Positions 5,507 through 36,576 of a DNA stretch of 38,986 bases are shown one piece after another. Made by a program: the position numbers and the translations under genes. The stretch covers positions 1 through 38,986 of the forward strand of contig JAAYDL010000027.1 in NCBI GenBank assembly GCA_012729265.1, read 5' to 3'. How positions within the stretch are numbered: the first letter of the stretch is position 1; each line of letters opens with the position of its first letter. The notes under the pieces were generated by a model, which saw nothing but the letters and a program-made list of their open reading frames with translations, searched no databases and was not told where the DNA came from. This stretch comes from Lentisphaerota bacterium (GTDB lineage: Bacteria > Verrucomicrobiota > Kiritimatiellia > Kiritimatiellales > Pontiellaceae).

Positions 5507-6154
5507 ATGGAAGATAATGTACAGAATGATATAGATGAAAGCGGGGAGATCGTTAATACGAAATTCACGGCTGATTCTATGGCCGGTCCGGACGATGATG
5601 CGCTGGTGCTTAAAGCGCAGCAGGGCGATGTGCATGCCTTTGATGTGTTGGTAGAGCGCTACCAAAGCAAGATTTACGGACTCGTCTACAACATGACCTC
5701 CAACCGCGAAGATGCCGAAGATCTGGTTCAGGAAATTTTTGTAAAGGCCTATCGGGCGCTGCCCCGTTTTAAAGGGAAATCTTCCTTCTATACATGGCTC
5801 TACCGCATCGCGGTCAATAAGACCATTAACTACCGGAAAAAGCGCAATCGCAAACGTGCCATGAGTCTCGACGAGTTTGACAGCGAGATCAAACTCGACG
5901 ATGTCTATCACGACCTCACTTCCAAAGGATCGCCGCTTCGTAACCTTAGTTTGACGGAGCTTCAGAAAAAAATGAACGAGGCGTTACAAAACCTGTCTGA
6001 GAAGCACAGAACGGTTGTGATCCTGCACGATATGCAGGGTGTTCCTCACGAAAATATCGCCAAAATGACGGGCGCTTCGGTGGGAACCATTCGATCGCGG
6101 TTGTTCTATGCCAGAAGGCAGCTGCAGGCTGAACTGACGGAGTTCATAAAATGA
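5507..6154 (+). CDS. ECF-type RNA polymerase sigma factor
   Basis: FDVLVERYQSKIYGLVYNMTSNREDAEDLVQEIFVKAYRALPRFKGKSSFYTWLYRIAVNKTINYRKKR (region 2) and HRTVVILHDMQGVPHENIAKMTGASVGTIRSRLFYARRQL (region 4). Confidence 0.94.
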   Translation: MEDNVQNDIDESGEIVNTKFTADSMAGPDDDALVLKAQQGDVHAFDVLVERYQSKIYGLVYNMTSNREDAEDLVQEIFVKAYRALPRFKGKSSFYTWLYRIAVNKTINYRKKRNRKRAMSLDEFDSEIKLDDVYHDLTSKGSPLRNLSLTELQKKMNEALQNLSEKHRTVVILHDMQGVPHENIAKMTGASVGTIRSRLFYARRQLQAELTEFIK

Positions 6155-6648
6155 CGGACAACAATAGTATGGAAAAATGCAGTGTTGAGTGTGACGATGA
6201 GCTTCTGGACAAGCTCCTTCATCTCAAGTGCTACGAAACTCCTGAGACGGCGCGGATGACGCGTTGCCGACAAAACATTATGCGGGAGATTCGACAGCAG
6301 GGCCAGCGACGACGTCTTGTTGATCTTATGGAAGTTCGATTCCCTTGGTTTTTTGCCGAACCCAAATACGGCATTGCGCTGCTCTTCGTGGGATTTTTTG
6401 GACTACAGTATCTGGCCGTGAATGCCCGTTATGCCGCACAGGCCGATCCCGGTATTTATATTCAGCCGACTACTGTGGTTCAAGATGAGGGAATCCCCTC
6501 GGTCGAAAACAGGATCGCTTTAGCTCCCGAAGAGGAGGATTATTCCCGGTTTCCGGAAAATCCGGAAGATTTTACGCTCCTTAGAACCCCGCAAAACGGA
6601 AATTCATACGTCAAGCCGGTTATGGTTGAGTTTCTGCGCGAAGAATAA
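6151..6648 (+). CDS. Putative anti-sigma factor / membrane protein
   Basis: 4-nt overlap with the sigma gene; one hydrophobic segment (YGIALLFVGFFGLQYLAV). Call is positional. Confidence 0.55.
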   Translation: MTDNNSMEKCSVECDDELLDKLLHLKCYETPETARMTRCRQNIMREIRQQGQRRRLVDLMEVRFPWFFAEPKYGIALLFVGFFGLQYLAVNARYAAQADPGIYIQPTTVVQDEGIPSVENRIALAPEEEDYSRFPENPEDFTLLRTPQNGNSYVKPVMVEFLREE

Positions 6649-6666: not shown

Positions 6667-6707
6667 GAAAGCGCCCACGCATTTCTGCCGGGCGCTTTCG
6701 CTTTTTT
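6667..6707 (+). terminator. Rho-independent terminator
   Basis: GAAAGCGCCC-acgcatttctgcc-GGGCGCTTTC followed by gctttttt. Confidence 0.85.
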
Positions 6708-7015: not shown

Positions 7016-8470
7016 ATGAAAAGAGTAGCCCTGTTGATTCTTTGTGCGGTATCGACCGTCACTTTCGGACAGCAACCTAATATGAGAGCCCAGCAGCGCC
7101 CGGCAGGAGGCGCGGGAGGTGCCATGGGCGGCGGCATGGGCGGCGGCATGGGTGGAGCCATGGGCGGCGGCGGATTCCAGGGCGGCGGCGGATTCCAGGG
7201 CGGCGGCATGGGAGGAGCCATGGGCGGCGGGTACGATGCGGCCCAATTCCAAGGTGGAGCTGGTATCGATATGAGCCAGCTTCCGCGTACCCAAAATGGT
7301 TCAACGCAAGCCCTGGCGACGGCTCAAGAGCCGGAGACAGCGGGCTATAATGAACTGATCGGCACTTTTTCAGAATTGGCTCAACAATTTGCTCAGGAAG
7401 ATACCCGAGATCTCGATGTTTTAGTTTATGAATGTAAATACATCGGTGCAGAAACCTTCCGTCAGGCCCTCGAACCGTTTCTTTCAGTTAATGGGGAGAT
7501 TTCCGATACCGACGATGCGGACTTGGTTATCATTCAGGATGACAGCGAGAGTCTTGAGCAGCTGAAGAAAATTGCGGAGTCGATCGATCGACCGGTTCGG
7601 CAGGTATTGGTCAGTGCCAGTGTGGTTGAATTCCAAATCAGCGACGGTTTTGAAAAAGATCTCAGTCTACAGTATTCGCAGTTTGTGAACATGGAACAGG
7701 TAAACCCGATCAGCGGAGCGAATACGGCCGATTTTGCTAAACGCATTATGAATGCGATTGTTCCCGCAAATCCGGCCACCATGAGCGGCTCTTCCTCCTA
7801 TCTCTATTATGATCCGGATGAGCAGACTATTATTTCTGCGTTTTTGAAATTTTTGGATACGAAAGGAACCGCTCGAATTCTTTCCTCACCCTCATTAATC
7901 ATGCGACGCGGACACACGGGGAACATTATTTCCGGTGAGGATATTCCGATCACCACTTCCAACGTAGGATCGCAGGGCATTACCTATTCGGTGCAATACA
8001 AGTCCGTCGGGATTAAGCTGCGTGTTACACCTGAATCTATTTTTGATAATCGTGTCGTGCTGGAAGTCAGCCCCGAGGTCTCCAATATTATCCGATACGA
8101 CAATCAGGGTAATCCGGTGATTGCCACCCGTAATGCCAGTACCATGTTGGAACTGAATGATGCTGAGATGGTCTCCATCGGCGGCCTTCTTCGTGAGGAA
8201 AAAACAGAGTCGGTCAAGCGGGTTCCCATTCTGGGCAGCATTCCGATTCTCGGCGCACTCTTTCGTTCCTCCAGCAGTGAGGAGATTCGCTCTCAATTGG
8301 TTATTTTCCTTACGGTCAACGTGGTTGGTCCGGATGAAATGAATTCGGATTCCATCACGCCCAGCAAGGTATCAGATGAGCTGAGAAAAAAAATTGATGC
8401 TTCCGATGAGGCCATCAATCAAAATGAGAAACCTTCCATTATCGAAGATGTTCAGCTTCTGATCAAATAA
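7016..8470 (+). CDS. Secretin (type II/III secretion-type outer-membrane channel) with Gly/Met-rich N-terminus
   Basis: Signal peptide; (GGGM)n/GGGGFQ repeats; VLVSASVVEFQ; GTARILSSPSLIMRRGHTGNIISGEDIPI; VGIKLRVTPESIFDNRVVLEVSPEVS; SIGGLLREEKTESVKRVPILGSIPILGALFRSSSSEEIRSQLVIFLTVNVV. Confidence 0.92.
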   Translation: MKRVALLILCAVSTVTFGQQPNMRAQQRPAGGAGGAMGGGMGGGMGGAMGGGGFQGGGGFQGGGMGGAMGGGYDAAQFQGGAGIDMSQLPRTQNGSTQALATAQEPETAGYNELIGTFSELAQQFAQEDTRDLDVLVYECKYIGAETFRQALEPFLSVNGEISDTDDADLVIIQDDSESLEQLKKIAESIDRPVRQVLVSASVVEFQISDGFEKDLSLQYSQFVNMEQVNPISGANTADFAKRIMNAIVPANPATMSGSSSYLYYDPDEQTIISAFLKFLDTKGTARILSSPSLIMRRGHTGNIISGEDIPITTSNVGSQGITYSVQYKSVGIKLRVTPESIFDNRVVLEVSPEVSNIIRYDNQGNPVIATRNASTMLELNDAEMVSIGGLLREEKTESVKRVPILGSIPILGALFRSSSSEEIRSQLVIFLTVNVVGPDEMNSDSITPSKVSDELRKKIDASDEAINQNEKPSIIEDVQLLIK

Positions 8471-8481
8471 GGCGGACATTT

Positions 8482-9963
8482 ATGAAATTGTTTACTATAC
8501 CACACAAATCGAATCTTTTGATCGCTACAGCAGTATCCCTGCTGGCGATCACGGGATGCGGTGAGAAAAAGAGTGAAAAGAAACAGCCGGATCAGGTCTA
8601 TGAAGTGGTTCGCGGTGACTTTAATGTTGTCGTCAGCATTCAGGGTTCTTTGGATGCCGTGAAACGGTATCTAATTGAAGCGCCTTCCATTGCTCGGCAG
8701 GGTCTCGATATTATTGAGGCCGTGCCGGACCAGACGGTGCTGAAAAAGGGCGATCAAATCGTTGCGTTCTCTGATGAGGTCTATCTCCAGGAACTGGATA
8801 GCGAGAAGGTTGAGGTGGAAGAGGCCAAAAAGGACCTGATGGTTCTCGAACAGGATTATCAGATCGCGGTGGCGGATATTGTCAGTGCGATTAAGTCATC
8901 GACCGACAGTCTTCGTCAGGCGACTGAGGCGTATGAAAAGTATGTCTATGAAGATGCTCCGCTGGATAAAGAAAATCTGATGCTGAGTGTGAAAAACGCC
9001 CGTAAAAATGTGGATGACGAAAGAGCGAATCTCGCATCACTCAAAACCGATCTGCTTTCAGCCTCTTCGGGCGATGAATCGGCGAAGACCCGGTTGGAGG
9101 GGCAGATTGAAACCTCTGAGGAGCGTATTGAAGAGCTTAAGCGTGCAGAAGAAAAGGCTTTGTATAATCTGCGTATCTTCAAGCAGTACACCTTTCCTCA
9201 GCAGGAGCGGAGGTTGGCGCAGAGCAAGACCAAGGCGGAGATGGATCTTCAGAAACAGCTCGTCAATTCGGCTGCAAAGCAGGTTCAGCTCGACACCAGA
9301 ATCGCTACGCAGAAGAGCCGTGTGAGTACCTTGGAATACCAAATGACGCAGTTGATTCAAAATATCGGGATGCTGAAGATAACCGCACCGGTGGATGGAA
9401 CGATTTCGTACGGGGATCCCGATCCGCGTCGCCGTTACGGCGAACAGAAGGAAATTGTTGTGGGAACGACGATGAACCGTCGTGAAATCATCGGCAGTAT
9501 TCCCGACCTCAGTCAGCTGATTGTAAACGTTGATGTTCCGGAAGCTTCGCGTTCCAAGGTTAAAATTGGTATGCGTGCTGAAATGCGGATTAAGGCGCTT
9601 CCCAATCTTAAGTTGTCCGGTGTGGTTCAAAAGGTATCTGATATGGCGACCAATCTGGTTCAATATGATGCGAGTACGCCAAAAATTTATCCCACAGTCA
9701 TTCAGGTGGATCAGACCGACCCCAATCTTCGTCCTGGTATGACGGTTGAAGTGGATATGATTTCAGAAGTCATTTCGGACGTGATTTATTTGCCCGTTGA
9801 AGCGCTCTATCCTAAAGAGGGCAAGGTATATTGTAACATCCTGAAGGGAGTCGGAACCGAAGCGCGCGAGGTTACCACCGGAAGAAGCTCTAACAGTTAT
9901 GTTGAAATCACAAACGGACTCAAAGAAGGGGACCGCGTGATGTTGTCTCGGGAGGAGTCGTAA
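8482..9963 (+). CDS. HlyD/MacA-family periplasmic adaptor, predicted lipoprotein
   Basis: Lipobox LLAITGC; long coiled coil; [34 protein letters not shown]...[12 protein letters not shown]...[11 protein letters not shown]...[15 protein letters not shown]. Confidence 0.9.
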
Positions 9964-9964
9964 G

Positions 9965-10636
9965 TTGAGCTTGATCGAGTTACGCGGGATCAGTCGGGTT
10001 TACGGCGAAGGCCCCACCGCTGTCCATGCATTGCGCCCTGCCAACCTAACCATAGAAGCGGGAACGCTGGTTGCAATTTTTGGAACATCGGGGTCCGGAA
10101 AATCTACGATGCTCAATATGTTGGGATTGCTGGATGAACCCACTTCGGGCGACTATCTGCTCGAAGGGCGAAATGTGGCCAACCTGACCGATGCGGTACG
10201 TTCAGAAATTCGATGTAAACAAATCGGGATTATCTTTCAGTCGTTTAACCTGTTTCCTCATTTTTCGATTTTGGAAAATGTCTGTATGCCCATGCGTTTT
10301 GCCGGGCTTGAGCGGCACGAAATGAAGGATCGTGCTTCGATGCTGCTGGATCGTGTCGGGCTGGGCGGGCGTCTGGCTCACAGTCCCTCGCAGCTTTCCG
10401 GCGGGCAATGCCAGCGAGTTGCCATTGCTCGGGCTTTGGCCAATAATCCTTCTGTTATTTTGGCGGATGAGCCGACGGGTAATCTTGATGAAAAAACAGG
10501 GAATGAAATTATCGAAATTTTTCATGAGCTGGTCGCCGAAGGCAACACGGTAATCATGGTTACACATAATGCAGAATACGAAAAAATGGTGCAGCGGGTC
10601 ATTGAGCTTCATGACGGGAATGTGGTGCGGAAATGA
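9965..10636 (+). CDS. ABC transporter ATP-binding protein (MacB/LolD type), TTG start
   Basis: Walker [46 protein letters not shown]. Confidence 0.95.
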
Positions 10637-11853
10637 GTCTTAAATACAACATAGAATCGACTTGGTTGAGTTTAAAGCATCATGCTTTCCGTTCCTTGCT
10701 CGCGATGCTTGGTGTTGTTCTCGGGGTTGCAGCGGTAGTCGGTATGCTGGCGGTCAGTGAAGGTGCACGCGTTGAGTCCGTCGAACGGATTCAGCAGCAG
10801 GGCGTCGACAACATTATTCTGCACACGGAAGAGCCCGATGCTGCCGCAATTGGAACGGAGGAACTCTTTTTTTACGGCATTACCCTCGAGGACATTGAGC
10901 ATTTCAGGACGGTTTTTGATAATGTGAAAAAGGTCGTTCCGGTGGTGCAGTTGCGTGAGACGGTGTATTCCCTAGGGAAACCGACGGATATTGTTCTCAT
11001 GGGCGTTCATCCTGCGTTTTTGAAAATATCACGTTCGGTAAACGCGGATTCGCGAGGACGATGGATTTCTGAAATGGACAGCGAGACGGCCTCTATGGTC
11101 TGCTCGGTCGGGGTTGATGCCGCACGCCAGCTTTTCGGCTTGGCTGATCCATTAGGGAAAACGATTTCCGTATACGGAGCCTCGTTCACGGTTGTCGGGC
11201 TGGTTGAAAATCCGCTGCGCTCTAAACTTGCCGGGAAGCACGATATCAATAACGTGATCTTTGTTGATTACGATAGTCTGCTCTCTATTTTTAAAAAGGA
11301 TAGTATGGAAGTGGTGGCTGACTACACCTACGTTCAGGTGGAAGATGTGGCCTATCTCAAAAACACGGCGGACCGAATTCGGACCTATCTGGCGGAGACG
11401 CACGAACTTCCTGATTATACCCTCAGTGTGCCTTATGAACTGCTTCTTGCGGAGCAGGCCACTCAGCGCGTGTTTGCCGTTGTTATGGGCTCCATTGCCG
11501 CAATCTCGCTCATCGTCGGCGGTATCGGCATTATGAATATTATGCTGGCCAATATTTATGAACGAACGAAGGAGATCGGAACCCTGCGGGCTTTGGGAGC
11601 ACAAAGGAAAACCATTCTTACTCAGTTCCTCTTTGAAGCGGTTACGCTGACGGGACTGGGCGGACTTCTCGGAGTCGGTATCGGCTTCCTCATTGCCGTG
11701 ATCATTAAATTGTCGGCGGGTATGCCCACCGTTGTTACCGCTCTCAGTGTTATGGTTTCACTTTCGGTATCGGTATTCACCGGGATTCTCTTCGGGACAT
11801 ACCCAGCGTGGAAAGCCTCCAACCTCAGTCCCATCGAGGCCCTTCGCCGTTAG
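10633..11853 (+). CDS. ABC transporter permease (MacB/FtsX family)
   Basis: N-terminal TM and periplasmic domain; [41 protein letters not shown]; terminal [17 protein letters not shown]. Overlaps the ATPase gene by 4 nt. Confidence 0.94.
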
Positions 11854-11888
11854 AATCGGCAGCAGAAATGCGGACTGTTTACTAGGAG

Positions 11889-11925
11889 CACCCTCACAAA
11901 AATTTGTGAGGGTGTTTTTGTTTTT
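11889..11925. terminator. Terminator hairpin between convergent macB-like and nifS genes
   Basis: CACCCTCACAAA-aa-TTTGTGAGGGTG followed by tttttgttttt. Confidence 0.88.
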
Positions 11926-16565: not shown

Positions 16566-16615
16566 GTGACGATTGAGGCGTGATTAATTCACGTTTCACG
16601 TTTCACGTTTCACCT
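16566..16615. repeat. Degenerate heptamer repeat (gtttcac)n
   Basis: cgtgacg attgagg cgtgatt aattcac gtttcac gtttcac gtttcac. Confidence 0.7.
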
Positions 16616-16654
16616 GTTTTGTTCTACCTTCTTCGAAAACGTGGAGGCTACCCC

Positions 16655-17836
16655 ATGAACGCATATGATGTAAAAGAAATCCTGATCGATAAAAATGCGA
16701 TCGCTGAACGGGTCGATGAACTGATCGATGCGATCGCTGAAGGAGCCGAGCCGGGTAATCTGGTGGTGATCGGCATTCTTAAGGGTAGTTTTATGTTTCT
16801 GGCCGATCTCATGCGCAGCTTTCACCGCCACGACATCCGCCCGCGCATCGATTTTATAACACTATCCAGCTACGGCGCCGGCACGGTCTCATCCGGTACG
16901 GTAACGGTCATTCACGACATCCGGGAAGATATTGCAGAAACCGACATTCTGCTGGTGGACGACATTCTGGACACGGGCCGCACGCTCGCCTTCTCCAAAA
17001 AGCTTTTTTTGCAGCGCGGCGCTCGTTCGGTTCAAAGCTGCGTGCTGCTTGATAAAAAGGTGCCCCGCGCTGTCGAATTCGAGGCCGATTATGTCGGGTT
17101 TGCCATCGACGATCATTTTGTGGTCGGCTACGGCCTCGATTATAACAACTATTACCGCGAGCTGCCGCACATTGCCAAACTCCACCCGATCAACGAGGAG
17201 CCGCAGCGTTGCCTGCCCATTGACCGCGAGCTGCCCGAGATTGTCCCGCTGGCCAAAGCGCATGCCGTACTTAACGAAGGCGGACTGGTGATTGTTCCCA
17301 CCGAAACCGTCTATGGCATCGCCTGCAATCCGGAGGTTCCTGGCGCTATGGAAAAGCTGATTGCCGCCAAAGGGCGTGATGGCGATAAGCCCATTGCCCG
17401 TCTGGCCGCCGATCCCCAACAGGTCGAGGACCTAGCGATTCACTGGAGCAGGCGACTACAGTCGCTCGCAGAAAAATATTGGCCCGGCGCACTGACGATT
17501 GTTCTGGAAACCGCCGAAGGCTGGACTGGTTTTCGTGTCCCCAATCACGCCGTGGCATTGCAACTGGCCCGCATCTGCCGTACACCGCTCGCGCTCACCA
17601 GCGCCAACCTCAGCGGCGAACCCGACACCCGGACCGCGCAGGAGGCGATGGCGTCGGTAGAGGCCGACCTTGTGCTCGACAGCGGCCCCTCCGCTGAACA
17701 GGCGATACCGAGCACCGTAGTCAAAGTTGACGGCGACCGGATTGAATGCCTTCGGCAAGGCAAAATTCCGTTTGAGGAAATCGAGTATACTTTTAAACAC
17801 CAAGACACTAAGGACTCAAAGGATTTACCTTTGTGA
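16655..17836 (+). CDS. Fusion: hypoxanthine phosphoribosyltransferase + L-threonylcarbamoyladenylate synthase (Hpt-TsaC/YrdC)
   Basis: N-terminal HPRT motifs VVIGILKGSFMFLADL and ILLVDDILDTGRTL; C-terminal GGLVIVPTETVYGIACN, AAKGRDGDKPIARL, WPGALTIVLE, FRVPNH, PLALTSANLSGEPDT, PSTVVKVDGDRIECLRQG. No internal stop. Confidence 0.92.
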   Translation: MNAYDVKEILIDKNAIAERVDELIDAIAEGAEPGNLVVIGILKGSFMFLADLMRSFHRHDIRPRIDFITLSSYGAGTVSSGTVTVIHDIREDIAETDILLVDDILDTGRTLAFSKKLFLQRGARSVQSCVLLDKKVPRAVEFEADYVGFAIDDHFVVGYGLDYNNYYRELPHIAKLHPINEEPQRCLPIDRELPEIVPLAKAHAVLNEGGLVIVPTETVYGIACNPEVPGAMEKLIAAKGRDGDKPIARLAADPQQVEDLAIHWSRRLQSLAEKYWPGALTIVLETAEGWTGFRVPNHAVALQLARICRTPLALTSANLSGEPDTRTAQEAMASVEADLVLDSGPSAEQAIPSTVVKVDGDRIECLRQGKIPFEEIEYTFKHQDTKDSKDLPL

Positions 17837-18349: not shown

Positions 18350-20029
18350 ATGAAGATTGCGATTGCTTCTGACCACGGTGGTTTTTTGCTGAAGAACGGC
18401 CTCGTGAGCATTCTGAAAGAAAAAGGCGTGACCGTGGAAGACCTCGGCTGCGAGAGTACTGAATCCGTCGACTATTCGGACTACGCTGCGGCAGTGGCCG
18501 ATAAGGTTTCCAACGGCGCCGTTGACCAAGGCATAATTGTCTGCACCACCGGCATTGGCGTCAGCATAACCGCCAATAAATTTCCGCATGTGCGCGCGGC
18601 ACTCTGCATGAACCCGGAAATGGCCTCCATGACCCGCCAGCATAACAACGCCAACGTGCTCTGCCTTTCAGGGAAATTCACTACGGCTGCTGATGCTCAG
18701 AAAATTCTGGAAGCTTGGCTGAGCGCTGAATTTGAAGGCGGACGCCACGAGCGCCGCGTAAATAAGATCAAGGATTATGCATCCGAAGCCGCCGGTACCA
18801 TTGCTGTCCACGATGTAGACCCTGAAATCTATTCTGTGCTTAAATCCGAAGACAAACGTCAGCGGGAAAATCTTGAGCTGATTGCCTCTGAAAACATTGT
18901 CAGTAAGGCTGTGCGCGAAGCACAGGGGTCGCGCCTGACCAACAAATATGCCGAAGGCTATCCGTCCAAGCGCTGGTACAACGGCTGCGAATGGGTCGAT
19001 GAAGCCGAGCGCCTCGCCATCGATCGCGCCAAAGAGCTCTTCGGTGCAGAGCATGTGAATGTGCAGCCGCACTGCGGCAGCAGTGCCAATATGGCCGTTT
19101 ACTATGCCGTGCTCAACCCCGGCGACACGATCCTTGCCATGAGCCTCGCCGAAGGCGGACATCTGACGCATGGACACCCGATGAACTTTTCCGGTCGCTT
19201 CTTCAACATCGTCCCTTACGGGGTGAATCAGGAAACGGAGCAGATCGACTACGAAAACCTCCAGCGGCTCGCTGATGAAAATAAGCCGAAAATGATCGTG
19301 GCCGGGGCCAGCGCCTATTCGCGGATCATCGACTTCAAGAAGCTGCGTAAGATTGCCGACAGCGTCGGCGCTTATCTGATGGTGGATATGGCACACATCG
19401 CGGGTCTCGTTGCCGCTGGTTGCCATCCCAACCCGGTGCCGCATTCCGACTTTGTAACCACCACGACACACAAAACCCTGCGCGGACCGCGCGGCGGCAT
19501 GATCCTCTGCAAAGAAAAGTTTGCTGCCGACATTGACCGTCAGGTGTTCCCCGGTATTCAGGGCGGACCGCTGATGCATATCATTGCAGCGAAAGCCGTC
19601 TGCTTCCACGAAGCGCTGCAGCCCGCGTTTAAACAGTATCAACAGCAGGTGGTTAAAAATGCGCAGGCGCTTGCCGCTGCATTGGAAGACGACGCCATCC
19701 GCATCGTTTCCGGCGGCACCGACAACCATCTGATGCTGGTGGATCTGACCAACGCCGACATTTCCGGAAAAGACGCGGCTACGGCGCTCGACAAAGCCGC
19801 GATCACCGTCAACAAAAACGGTATTCCGTTCGACAAGAAGAGCCCGTTCGTCACCTCGGGTATCCGTGTCGGTACGCCGGCGGTAACCACTCGCGGGATG
19901 AAAGAAGCCGAAATGGAAAAGATCGCGGGCTTCATTAAGCGCGTTGTTCACAACCCCAACAACGACGCCGTACTGGCGCAGGTCCGCGAAGAGGTTCTCG
20001 CCCTGACTGCACAGTTCCCGATTCCGTAA
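18350..20029 (+). CDS. Fusion: ribose-5-phosphate isomerase B + serine hydroxymethyltransferase (RpiB-GlyA)
   Basis: N-terminal [47 protein letters not shown] (RpiB); from about residue 160 [73 protein letters not shown] (GlyA). Confidence 0.95.
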
Positions 20030-31879: not shown

Positions 31880-32914
31880 ATGTTAAAAAAGACTCGAAAA
31901 TCTGAAGGAGAGAACCCTGGTTTAAAAAAGCGGGCTCAGCGGAAATGTAACATTTTTCTTGGGTTTGACTTTGCCAGTACGGCCACCAAGGTTGTGCGAC
32001 TGAAGCGTTCCGGAGATTCAGCAATACTAATGAATGCTGCGCTTTTGCCGCCGATTGATTTTTCTACTCCTGTGTGTCCGGAACTGCCCCGCAAAATGAA
32101 TGCGTACTATGGGTGTCTATGCTACAGCGGGAAAAATGCGGCTATCCGGGTTCTTCATACGCCGCTGCGGCCTGATGAGATCGAACCTTCGGATGATAAA
32201 CTGCGGGAACTGCTCAGTGTGAAGAGCGATTTTCGTGTGGCGTCTCGACTGCTCCAGCAGGGGAAAGGGCGTCAGGATTCCACACTGCTCGGAGTTGCTG
32301 TTCCGAAAGCAGATGTCGATTTTTTTCTCAGTATGTTTTCGGTTGGTCCGCCTGCTCCGGCGTCACTGGAGGTCTCAGGGCTCGCTGTGATATCTGCATT
32401 TCTACATGCGCGGGGAGCTGAGTTTCAAAATGAAGTGGTTTGTTTGATTGAGGCTGGCGAAAATATAAGTACCTTCGCTTTTTTAAATAGGGATGAGGTG
32501 TTTCTGGTTGGGAAGTATAACTTTGGACTTCGCACGTTGCGGGAACGATTGATCAGGGATCTGGACGTTGATGGCGAGTTGGCCATGACTATTTTGAAGG
32601 ACCGATCCATAAATATTTCATCCTCTCTCACGGGCGTTCAGGAGGCCTTCATTAAGCAGCTTTCAGTCTCAAAGGATTTTGTAGAGCGTCACGAGAATTG
32701 TAAAATTACAAAAACCTATCTGTCCGGCGGTCTGAGTTTGCTCTCGTTCTGGCCGCAGGAAATCGAACAGCGCCTCAATACTTCAGCGCAGGTCTGGAGC
32801 CCGTTGGAAAATATTCAGCTTTCCTCTGCGGATGTGATGCCGCGTGAGCTACAGGATCAGGCAACCCGATTTACTGCCGCGATTGGCGCCGCATTAGGAG
32901 GGTTAATGGAATAA
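31880..32914 (+). CDS. PilM-like actin-fold pilus assembly protein
   Basis: IFLGFDFASTATKVVRLKRSG...; position directly before PilN/PilO-like genes. Confidence 0.72.
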   Translation: MLKKTRKSEGENPGLKKRAQRKCNIFLGFDFASTATKVVRLKRSGDSAILMNAALLPPIDFSTPVCPELPRKMNAYYGCLCYSGKNAAIRVLHTPLRPDEIEPSDDKLRELLSVKSDFRVASRLLQQGKGRQDSTLLGVAVPKADVDFFLSMFSVGPPAPASLEVSGLAVISAFLHARGAEFQNEVVCLIEAGENISTFAFLNRDEVFLVGKYNFGLRTLRERLIRDLDVDGELAMTILKDRSINISSSLTGVQEAFIKQLSVSKDFVERHENCKITKTYLSGGLSLLSFWPQEIEQRLNTSAQVWSPLENIQLSSADVMPRELQDQATRFTAAIGAALGGLME

Positions 32915-33549
32915 TGAATGTTCTACGCGTCAATTTGCTGGATAAGAGCGAGCGCCGTCATCAGGGACCCGTCAGTCGGAGGTTTGCATTCGTTTGTGCT
33001 ATGGTAACACCTGTTTTGCTGATAGCAGTAATTGCCGCCACCAAAATGGTGCAGCTTGGCATCTCAAAGCATGATCTTGAAACCAAACGGGCTGACTGGG
33101 AACGACTTCAGCCTTCGTTGGTGGAATTTGACGAGAAGGCGAAAGAGTTGGATGAAAGTCGTCAGTTGCTTGAGCTTTTTGAGGCTTGGGAAAAGTCGCG
33201 TCTTCCAATGGAAGATTTGCTGGAAGAGATTCGAGACATTGTCCCGGAGCGCGTGGAACTCAAACAGTTGAGCCTTGGCGTGACATTAGACAGAACCATG
33301 CGTTTCGGTTTCAGGAAACCTGAAGAGATGGCGTTGAAAAGCCGACTGCAGATCGGGGGACTTATTCGGGAAGAGAGAGATAAGGCGAGCGAATGTATGA
33401 CTGGATTTCTGGAGGATCTTCAGAGTAATACAGTGCTCGGCGATTCTTTTTCGTCGAAGAAGATCAACCAGATTGGTCCCCTTGTGATTCGGGCTGGTAC
33501 AGACGGTTCGGCTGCTTCTGAATTCAAGATTCAGGGGGAAGCAAAATGA
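32914..33549 (+). CDS. PilN-like assembly protein
   Basis: MNVLRVNLLDKSERRHQGPVSRRFAFVCAMVTPVLLIAVI, TM then coiled coil; 1-nt overlap with the PilM-like gene. Confidence 0.65.
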   Translation: MNVLRVNLLDKSERRHQGPVSRRFAFVCAMVTPVLLIAVIAATKMVQLGISKHDLETKRADWERLQPSLVEFDEKAKELDESRQLLELFEAWEKSRLPMEDLLEEIRDIVPERVELKQLSLGVTLDRTMRFGFRKPEEMALKSRLQIGGLIREERDKASECMTGFLEDLQSNTVLGDSFSSKKINQIGPLVIRAGTDGSAASEFKIQGEAK

Positions 33550-34202
33550 TCAATTTCAGTCAACTGACCAAAGAGCAGAAGCAATATGTTTTTCTTGGTG
33601 TCGTAGCACTGGCGATATTTGTATGGCTTGGGGTACTCGGAGCAAAAGAAGTGCTCTCTTCAATGACCTCAATTGACACAGAGTTGGCAGAGGTGGACGG
33701 TAAACTGAAAGACGGCTTGCGTAAGGAGGCGGAGTACAAGCAGGTCAGTCAAGATTATCTCCCCACGGTGCAGCAGACGATGAAATATCTTGTGCAGGAT
33801 ATCCCGAACAGGAACCGATTGACTGAAATCCAAACCAAAATTTATTTGCTGGAAAAGAACACCGAACTTACGGTTTTCGATATAAAGGAGATACCGCTCG
33901 CTCCGGGGGGGAGTGCTGGAGGCGGGGCGATTACGCTGAATTCGTATGCGCTTCAGATCAGTGCCAAAGCGAGTTATGTGGGGGTTTTGCAGTTTGTGGC
34001 GGCATTATACAAAGAGTTTCCGCTCGTCCGTGTGGTTTATCTTAATATTAGATCGCAGACCCAGGAACCGGAACAACACCTTGTGGAGATTCAGGTTCAG
34101 TGGCTGTGCGACTTTCATTCATTCCTTGAAAAATGGGAAGGGATTGATGCGTTGAGCACGAGTCAGGATGCGGAATCCGACGCCGCATTGACCGATGACT
34201 GA
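33546..34202 (+). CDS. PilO-like assembly protein
   Basis: Short N-terminus, TM (YVFLGVVALAIFVWLGVLG), coiled coil, C-terminal ISAKASYVGVLQFVAALYKEFPLVRVVYLNI. Confidence 0.75.
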   Translation: MINFSQLTKEQKQYVFLGVVALAIFVWLGVLGAKEVLSSMTSIDTELAEVDGKLKDGLRKEAEYKQVSQDYLPTVQQTMKYLVQDIPNRNRLTEIQTKIYLLEKNTELTVFDIKEIPLAPGGSAGGGAITLNSYALQISAKASYVGVLQFVAALYKEFPLVRVVYLNIRSQTQEPEQHLVEIQVQWLCDFHSFLEKWEGIDALSTSQDAESDAALTDD

Positions 34203-34232
34203 TGAACTTATTATGTGTTAGATGGTTATTTT

Positions 34233-34691
34233 ATGAATGAGTTAATATGCAGGGTGAGAAGGGCTTCCGTGAAAATTCTTTTCTTAACCGTATGGGTTCT
34301 GCTCGAATTTACGTTGGGTTCTTCCGCGCAGAATGAGAGCGAAGCCTTGGCGGAGTCGGGGCCGTCTGTTGTTGAGAAAGTGCCGATGAAGCGGGATCCA
34401 TTCTGGCCGGTGGGGTATGTTCCTAAAAGCCAAACGGTCGAAATTCCGGTTGTGGATAACTCTGCTACTCAAGTGGATTGGGAATCAGCAGAAACGCAGT
34501 TGAAAGTTAGTGCTGTGGGGGAAAAACTTGGGGTTCCTTTTGTCGTAATTAATGGGAAAGTGATGACCGAAGGTACGCGATTTCAGATTAAAATCAATCG
34601 GGTGACCTATACGTGGGAAGTGCCTGAAATTGATCCGGGAAAGAGCGCCATGGCGGTTGAGCCGCGTCGGGTGTTGGCTGAAACGGAATAA
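34233..34691 (+). CDS. PilP-like periplasmic protein (positional call)
   Basis: Signal/TM segment, KRDPFWPVGY motif, small C-terminal beta region (KVSAVGEKLGVPFVVINGKVMTEGTRFQIKINRVTYTWEV). Confidence 0.5.
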   Translation: MNELICRVRRASVKILFLTVWVLLEFTLGSSAQNESEALAESGPSVVEKVPMKRDPFWPVGYVPKSQTVEIPVVDNSATQVDWESAETQLKVSAVGEKLGVPFVVINGKVMTEGTRFQIKINRVTYTWEVPEIDPGKSAMAVEPRRVLAETE

Positions 34692-34716
34692 AAGTAGAAC
34701 AATTAGGAAGATATAG

Positions 34717-36576
34717 ATGAAAGCATATAATACGATAGGGTTTGCATTTGCTCTGGCCGTTGTAGTGCTGTCAAATGGGTATGCTCAGACCGATCAAAAA
34801 ACCGAGGCGGAAAGCGATATGCAGTCATTACTCCGCCTAATCAATCAGGGGCGTGGGAACGAGAGTTCGACCAATGATGTGGATGGCGTTGAACTGCAAG
34901 GCGATCCGGTTTCCGGGGATTCGGTAGCTTCTGATGTAGTGCTACTCAATAATCCCGAGGCAACGATTGTGCCCATGAAAAGGGATGCAGCGGGTAATGA
35001 ATTGATTTCTATCAACGATTTTAAGGGAACTCTAGCGGAGGCGATTGCATTATTTGCTGAGCTTTCTGAAAAAAATATTATTATCCCCCAGTTGCCGGAA
35101 ACCTCCACGATTGCCTTTAGCTTTACGGATGTGGAGTGGCGTTCAGCCCTGCAGTCTGTGCTTGATACGTATAACTATGAACTCTACCAACGGGTTTCCG
35201 AATCGGAGATTTACAGTGTTCGGTTGCGTCCGGAGGGCGCTCCGGACCCATTGTTGGTTCGAACCTTTGTGCTGAAATATGCAACGGTTCCGCTGGCGGC
35301 TGAGCTCGTCCGCGGAATCATGGGGGAGGATGAGGCGAAGATTTCTGAATTTGCTTCGCGCAATATGTTGGTGGTTAAAGCAAGCGAAGAACGGTTGCGC
35401 GAAATTGAAGCCATTGTGCAATCGATTGATACGGTCCGTGATCAGGTCTACATTGAATCCAAGTTTATGGAGTTGACCGACGATGCGCAGAAGGATCTCG
35501 GTATCGACTGGGCGGTTCTTCAGGCATATAGCTTAGGAACGTCCGGTGATTTAACAAAGACGATTGAGGATCTGGACAGTTCTTCACGAACCGAGACGAC
35601 CTATCGGGATTCCGAGGGGAATGTCTATGAGACGGCCAGCGGTTATTCGGAAACCCACCGCGGCGGTTCGTCGGCTGCTCCTTGGACGCTGACGGGCGTA
35701 ACGCCTTCGCTGGAGACGGTAACCGGGAGCGAGAAAACAGAGCTTCTCGCCAGTATTTTAAGTGCGGATGAATTTCGTGTGGCGCTGAGTGCTTTGGCTC
35801 AAAATAAGGGAGTGAATATTATTTCGAACCCGAAGATCATTGTGGCGAACGAAGAACCTGCGAATATTTCGATTATCCGAAAAGAACCCAACCTTCGGCA
35901 GGAACGTCAGCAGGCGATGAACGACACACCGGATACGATTACGTTCACGCTGGATGAAGACCAGCCCTTCTTTGAATACGGAATAAAGCTGGATGTAAGG
36001 CCTTCGATCAACACGTCCAGCAACATTACCGTTCAGATCAATCCTTCGCTGACCCGAAAATATGCAGATAAAGAGGCGGGGCAGAATACGTATCCGATTA
36101 TTGACGAAAAGAGTATTAAGACGGTCTTTAATCTCGCCAGCGGTCAGACGGCTGCGATCGGCGGGCTGACCGAAATTTCGGAGTCTGAAGTCGTGCGCAA
36201 GGTTCCGGTTCTGGGAAGTATTCCGTTGCTTGGAAGACTCTTCCGATGGGAACAGACGGTACGGGGTCAGAAGGAAACCATCATATTTGTAACCGTTGGT
36301 TTAGCCAATACCCATAATTTGGATCCCAATGAGGGAATGCCCGCCGATTCCGAATTGGCGCGACTTCAGATGATACAGGATGATAACACCAGACGTATTC
36401 GTGAACTGAGTCTTGAGTACTATTCTGCTGAGGAAGCAGACAAGCTCAACGATGCACTCAATGAACTTGAGCGGAAAGAGCAGGAGCGTGTTGAGACGCG
36501 TGCGCTGGAGCTGATGCGGGCCGAAGAGGAGCAGGCCATAAAAGACGCTCAGTACAATCTTGAGTCCGCAGAATAA
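34717..36576 (+). CDS. Secretin (PilQ/GspD-like) with N domains
   Basis: ISINDFKGTLAEAIALFAELSEKNIIIPQ; FVLKYATVPLAAELVRGIMGEDEAKISEFASRNMLVVKASEERLREIEAIVQSIDTVRDQVYIESKFMEL; SIKTVFNLASGQTAAIGGLTEISESEVVRKVPVLGSIPLLGRLFRWEQTVRGQKETIIFVTVGLAN. Confidence 0.92.
   Translation: MKAYNTIGFAFALAVVVLSNGYAQTDQKTEAESDMQSLLRLINQGRGNESSTNDVDGVELQGDPVSGDSVASDVVLLNNPEATIVPMKRDAAGNELISINDFKGTLAEAIALFAELSEKNIIIPQLPETSTIAFSFTDVEWRSALQSVLDTYNYELYQRVSESEIYSVRLRPEGAPDPLLVRTFVLKYATVPLAAELVRGIMGEDEAKISEFASRNMLVVKASEERLREIEAIVQSIDTVRDQVYIESKFMELTDDAQKDLGIDWAVLQAYSLGTSGDLTKTIEDLDSSSRTETTYRDSEGNVYETASGYSETHRGGSSAAPWTLTGVTPSLETVTGSEKTELLASILSADEFRVALSALAQNKGVNIISNPKIIVANEEPANISIIRKEPNLRQERQQAMNDTPDTITFTLDEDQPFFEYGIKLDVRPSINTSSNITVQINPSLTRKYADKEAGQNTYPIIDEKSIKTVFNLASGQTAAIGGLTEISESEVVRKVPVLGSIPLLGRLFRWEQTVRGQKETIIFVTVGLANTHNLDPNEGMPADSELARLQMIQDDNTRRIRELSLEYYSAEEADKLNDALNELERKEQERVETRALELMRAEEEQAIKDAQYNLESAE

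Follow-up and report, generated by a model that had tools for sequence, protein, structure and literature searches.

Tripartite pumps are described with outer-membrane ducts of the TolC family, and secretins are known as the partners of pseudopilus, pilus and injectisome platforms; in the type II secretion system (T2SS), the secretin is docked through its N0 domain (on GspC) to the inner-membrane platform. With MacAB-TolC the locus described here shares the MacA-like adaptor fold, the MacB-like ATPase and a permease with MacB_PCD and FtsX domains, as well as the gene order found in homologous tolC-macA-ATPase-permease operons, but it has a secretin for TolC, an adaptor without the TolC-docking tip and with eight additional residues at its apex, and an ATPase and a permease which are separate proteins, while they are fused in E. 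coli MacB. With the T2SS it shares an outer-membrane secretin that Pfam places in one family with GspD; this secretin, however, lacks N0, has one N-domain and belongs to a clade of its own, its energy source would be an ABC ATPase, and no GspC, GspE, GspF or pseudopilin genes were seen with it. The secretin barrel is also common to PilQ and to pIV of filamentous phages (the pIV profile phrog_1012 and PilQ profiles match), whereas the unit is free of pilus and phage genes and the partner is a MacA-like adaptor. Finally, in the Aat system of lipoprotein secretion (AatPABCD), as in this locus, a transporter and an adaptor are homologous to MacB and MacA, and there they export a periplasmic substrate (PMC7943197); the Aat exit, though, is the TolC homologue AatA, in place of which this unit has a secretin. 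The four genes probably encode a tripartite, ABC-driven exporter where the secretin replaces TolC and the apex of the adaptor would be docked on it.

The unit is located in a window of 38,986 nucleotides (the whole stretch of DNA analysed) from a draft genome of Kiritimatiellales, Pontiellaceae type, with the following features and their basis.

6690-6703, + strand: terminator-like hairpin, upstream boundary of the unit, 3' of an ECF sigma factor/small ORF pair (consensus match only)
7016-8470, + strand: short secretin (ORF list, Pfam)
8482-9963, + strand: MacA-like periplasmic adaptor, lipobox at C26 (Pfam, predicted structure)
9061-9075, + strand: apex of the adaptor hairpin, residues 194-198, A-S-S-G-D (predicted structure, family alignment)
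9965-10636, + strand: ABC ATPase of MacB/LolD type, TTG start, separate polypeptide (Pfam, catalytic motifs)
10633-11853, + strand: MacB-like permease, MacB_PCD periplasmic core and FtsX (Pfam)
11883-11920, + strand: terminator-like hairpin of 17 pairs with a T-run, end of the unit (consensus match only)

The original prediction of four same-strand genes, spaced by 11 nt and 1 nt and ending in a 4-nt overlap, agrees in full with the ORF coordinates. Since terminator-like hairpins flank the set on both sides, a single transcript of exactly four genes is plausible. Pfam matches were obtained for the secretin (Secretin, 3e-41, with a weak Secretin_N), the adaptor (HlyD_D23/HlyD_3), the ATPase (ABC_tran, 8e-34), whose Walker A, LSGGQ, Walker B and H-loop are all intact, and the permease (MacB_PCD, 1e-33; FtsX, 3e-20). 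Two further claims could be upheld only in part. The absence of a TolC-like gene holds for the contig, which has no OEP/TolC domain, but several OEP loci are found on other contigs of the genome. As regards lipidation of the adaptor, the lipobox LLAITGC (C26) is kept in close orthologues, yet a crude lipobox pattern occurs in only 14 of 70 adaptors from secretin-containing operons, so that lipidation is no general feature and was rejected as a defining trait. Upstream, the stretch 5507-6648 (+ strand) holds an ECF sigma factor gene and, overlapping its end by 4 nt, a small ORF whose product has a hydrophobic segment and is a possible anti-sigma factor; as this pair stops before the terminator-like hairpin, it is probably transcribed separately from the four-gene unit.

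The adaptor profile was run against 388 genomes of the phylum, the operon genes being identified through a profile search over all ORFs, and two score groups resulted. The strong group (at least 336 bits) comprised 71 genomes among the matches listed, the adaptor being preceded by a secretin in all cases with sufficient flanking sequence; it was tolC that occupied this place in the weaker group, in all but three of the operons examined whose upstream gene was readable. The three exceptions (G412, G211 and G271) have a secretin and fall in the secretin clade on the adaptor tree. Close adaptor orthologues (54-68% identity) are present in 8 other relatives, each with the orthologous secretin (59-72%) directly upstream. 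Among the aligned operons, 70 were of secretin type, 38 of tolC type and none had both, the slot of the secretin in secretin-adaptor-ATPase-permease being that of tolC in the homologous tolC-macA-ATPase-permease operons. The source genome itself carries a second, diverged secretin-adaptor-ATPase-permease set on contig 332, and its tolC-type operons number at least one, since contig 118 has an ordinary tolC-macA-macB set. Whether distant genomes keep the order of the four genes was a test set beforehand; the order recurs in 70 operons from many families, in Kiritimatiellales as well as in other bacteria of the Verrucomicrobiota type, and in two genomes belonging to a second phylum. Homologous operons that lack a secretin, which had been named as evidence against the idea, do exist, yet they form a separate clade with tolC in the slot and the TolC-docking tip retained, which strengthens the proposal instead. 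Two secretin and adaptor pairs with no adjacent ABC ATPase or permease (L149 and L150, from G246 and G145) count against an exporter made up of all four products. No extra gene, either cargo or helper, was conserved around the operons, the genes next to them (CinA or an epimerase, for example) being of local occurrence only. In one secretin-type operon (L244) the adaptor is in two fragments with one in-frame stop, representing a decayed copy or a sequencing error.

The second phylum was reached via a planctomycete MAG and sampled with 294 genomes, where most of the matching operons examined were of tolC type and two, in G497 and G435, of secretin type. Secretin-type adaptors with no adjacent secretin were found in G544 and G659, which amounts to two exceptions among some 73 operons with such an adaptor and also counts against the exporter proposed. 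In G544 a secretin of the operon type is encoded on a different contig (399 bits); no equally strong one was detected in G659, which may be due to incompleteness or be a true exception. The adaptor profile retrieved no secretin-type operon from 40 Riflebacteria or 297 Bacteroidota genomes, a weak negative with such a profile, and only distant MacA-like adaptors were matched among PLSDB plasmids.

The history of the partner exchange was reconstructed with trees of the quick type. In the adaptor tree, built with 89 sequences (51 secretin-type and 38 tolC-type, the diversity of the latter being under-sampled since sampling began from secretin-type queries), one branch divides both types with an SH-aLRT support of 100, marking a single switch of partner. 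The same single split was recovered when the hairpin was omitted from the alignment (support 99) and on the permease tree (support 99), and therefore the swap involves the whole machine and is old. In addition, all 51 secretins from the operons group in a single clade (99), to the exclusion of 23 others from the source genome and its relatives. Adaptor and secretin distances are strongly correlated (Mantel r = 0.88; maximum among 2000 permutations, 0.12), a correlation which is partly due to shared species history. Species history, nevertheless, cannot explain that the two secretin-type operons of the source genome are placed in different subclades in the adaptor tree and likewise in the secretin tree, from which it follows that the secretin-adaptor pair is inherited as a unit. 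The operon on contig 332 (L091) clusters with that of G294 (L144), which belongs to another family, and apart from its close relatives, so that horizontal transfer of the whole unit is likely.

The adaptor consists of barrel-sandwich, alpha-hairpin, beta-barrel and C-terminal domains, and MacA from MacAB-TolC was the closest solved structure in a fold search. AlphaFold2 predicts one long alpha-hairpin of about 14 nm (helices 99-193 and 199-296, pLDDT mostly above 90), a region about twice as long as that of E. coli MacA and of the same length class as in the tolC-type adaptors of the phylum. With three exceptions, secretin-type adaptors have a hairpin region of 203-207 residues (typically 205); in 35 of the 38 tolC-type ones it spans 197-199 (typically 197), and the family alignment traces this difference to an eight-residue apex insertion in the secretin type. 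In the adaptor of the window, the insertion, a stretch absent from tolC-type adaptors, covers about residues 197-204 and borders the apex at 194-198. Three secretin-type hairpins (L161, L162 and L175) reach 263, 263 and 321 residues as against 205, with both arms equally longer, and constitute a natural ruler series.

In known pumps, binding of TolC by an RLS motif (RxxxLxxxxxxS) at the adaptor apex was demonstrated by mutation (PMC3391258). The strict form R-x3-L-x6-[ST] failed as a discriminator, since the Arg is unconserved in the phylum, even in tolC-type adaptors, as it also is in the secretin-type group. The leucine, on the contrary, is present in 38/38 tolC-type adaptors, while in the secretin-type proteins it is replaced, mostly by polar residues; in the tolC type, with one exception for the whole pattern, a hydroxyl residue or Asn follows it seven positions later, with an aromatic between them. 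The pattern L-x4-[FYH]-x-[STN] was matched by 37/38 tolC-type and 0/70 secretin-type adaptors; its exact form was set after the tolC-type sequences had been seen, the leucine/hydroxyl spacing being the published one. As about 1 of 51 secretin-type adaptors would be expected to match by chance, the absence of the tip in this group is by itself unremarkable. What stands out, as judged from the alignments, is the near-universal tip in tolC-type adaptors together with the apex insertion in the secretin-type ones. These data bear on the suggestion that the adaptor binds a TolC-family protein encoded elsewhere through a different tip contact, the secretin being an alternative second exit. The several OEP loci in the genome would provide such a protein; nevertheless, tolC occurs in 0/70 secretin-type operons, and the leucine invariant in the tolC type is replaced in these adaptors, which makes this explanation highly improbable.

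The secretin of the window has a signal peptide, a single N-domain (137-196), the secretin barrel (280-437) and no N0; its structure model was poor (mean pLDDT 53). Near the N-terminus, a Gly/Met-rich low-complexity stretch (residues about 35-90) is not found in the aligned orthologues. Of twenty operon secretins scanned, every one shows the secretin domain, while a short N-domain could be recognised in 17 and N0 in none. By comparison, N0 was present in 8 and several N-domains in 9 of ten other secretins from the source genome and relatives. The lack of N0, the docking domain in the T2SS, fits a different partner. It could still be argued that the secretin is one component of a T2SS- or type IV pilus (T4P)-like system with its remaining genes elsewhere, the MacAB-like transporter being merely co-regulated. 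In fact, the genome has other secretins, one of them next to a PilM-like gene at a distance of 23 kb, and the Geobacter 'Pul/Oxp' T2SS clusters may also carry ABC genes. However, the operon secretins form a separate clade with a single N-domain and no N0, no T2SS or T4P genes (GspE, GspF and pseudopilins included) were identified by Pfam in the flanks of the contig 332 copy, no flanking gene is conserved across operons, and mere co-regulation does not account for an adaptor that has lost its TolC tip. This alternative is therefore regarded as very unlikely. No PilM, PilN, PilO or PilP genes are found among those directly around the four-gene unit. A type IV pilus-like cluster lies outside the unit at 31880-36576 (+ strand), comprising the PilM-like gene, three more genes and an unrelated second secretin of 619 aa.

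Another alternative is that the transporter and adaptor serve to assemble or quality-check the secretin, or its helper lipoproteins, rather than forming a conduit that leads into it, with the secretin serving another system. The Lol machinery belongs to the MacB-type (type VII) ABC proteins, profile comparison did reveal similarity of the ATPase and permease to LolD and LolC, and no pilotin gene is visible beside the operon secretins. The Lol machinery, though, has no adaptor of this kind, with a full conduit architecture, a 95-residue hairpin and MacA as its nearest fold; moreover, the secretin is exactly in the tolC slot with the tip changed along with the partner, and the operon secretins lack the N0 which canonical platforms use. 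An assembly role is accordingly considered unlikely. All three alternatives leave unexplained that the change in the adaptor tip coincides exactly with the replacement of tolC by the secretin.

Returning to the exporter, its inner-membrane component would be a split MacB-type transporter (ATPase plus MacB_PCD/FtsX permease) which, by analogy with the MacB family, may act through mechanotransmission on a periplasmic substrate. The MacA-like adaptor, with its predicted hairpin of about 14 nm, would form the periplasmic conduit, and its apex, without the TolC tip and with eight more residues, would dock on the outer-membrane secretin with its single N-domain, making the passage continuous. With no TolC-docking tip in the adaptor and a secretin in place of TolC, the cargo is probably pushed outwards through the secretin pore, which could admit larger cargo than TolC. 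The original prediction that a MacB-type pump may feed a secretin channel is thus supported as far as the conserved gene order and the contrast with the tolC clade are concerned, while physical docking and transport are what we infer from them. In a wider sense, we somewhat favour the view that these operons represent a distinct and ancient class of ABC-driven secretion machine in bacteria of the Verrucomicrobiota/Planctomycetota type, with a MacB-type transporter feeding a secretin that has a single N-domain. The class would have arisen by one TolC-to-secretin swap with a change of the tip, and may export folded proteins from the periplasm for which TolC would give no passage.

The configuration had not been recognised beforehand as a characterised one, and in the open literature (subscription papers were outside the search) no machine combining a secretin with MacAB was found described; within the portion of text available from a comprehensive review on tripartite pumps, 'secretin' occurs only inside another word. 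An ABC-driven secretin, if true, would unite two machine families thought to be separate and would mean that the outer-membrane component is exchangeable, provided that the adaptor tip changes too. It would also provide a secretion route in a large bacterial group whose secretion is poorly known. Moreover, the matched operons of the two types, in some cases present together in the same genome, are suitable for tests of adaptor-duct recognition. Elsewhere in the window, two single ORFs on the + strand combine different domains: the one at 16580-17836 contains a phosphoribosyltransferase domain and a Sua5/YrdC domain, and in that at 18350-20029 an RpiB-type ribose/galactose isomerase domain is fused to serine hydroxymethyltransferase.
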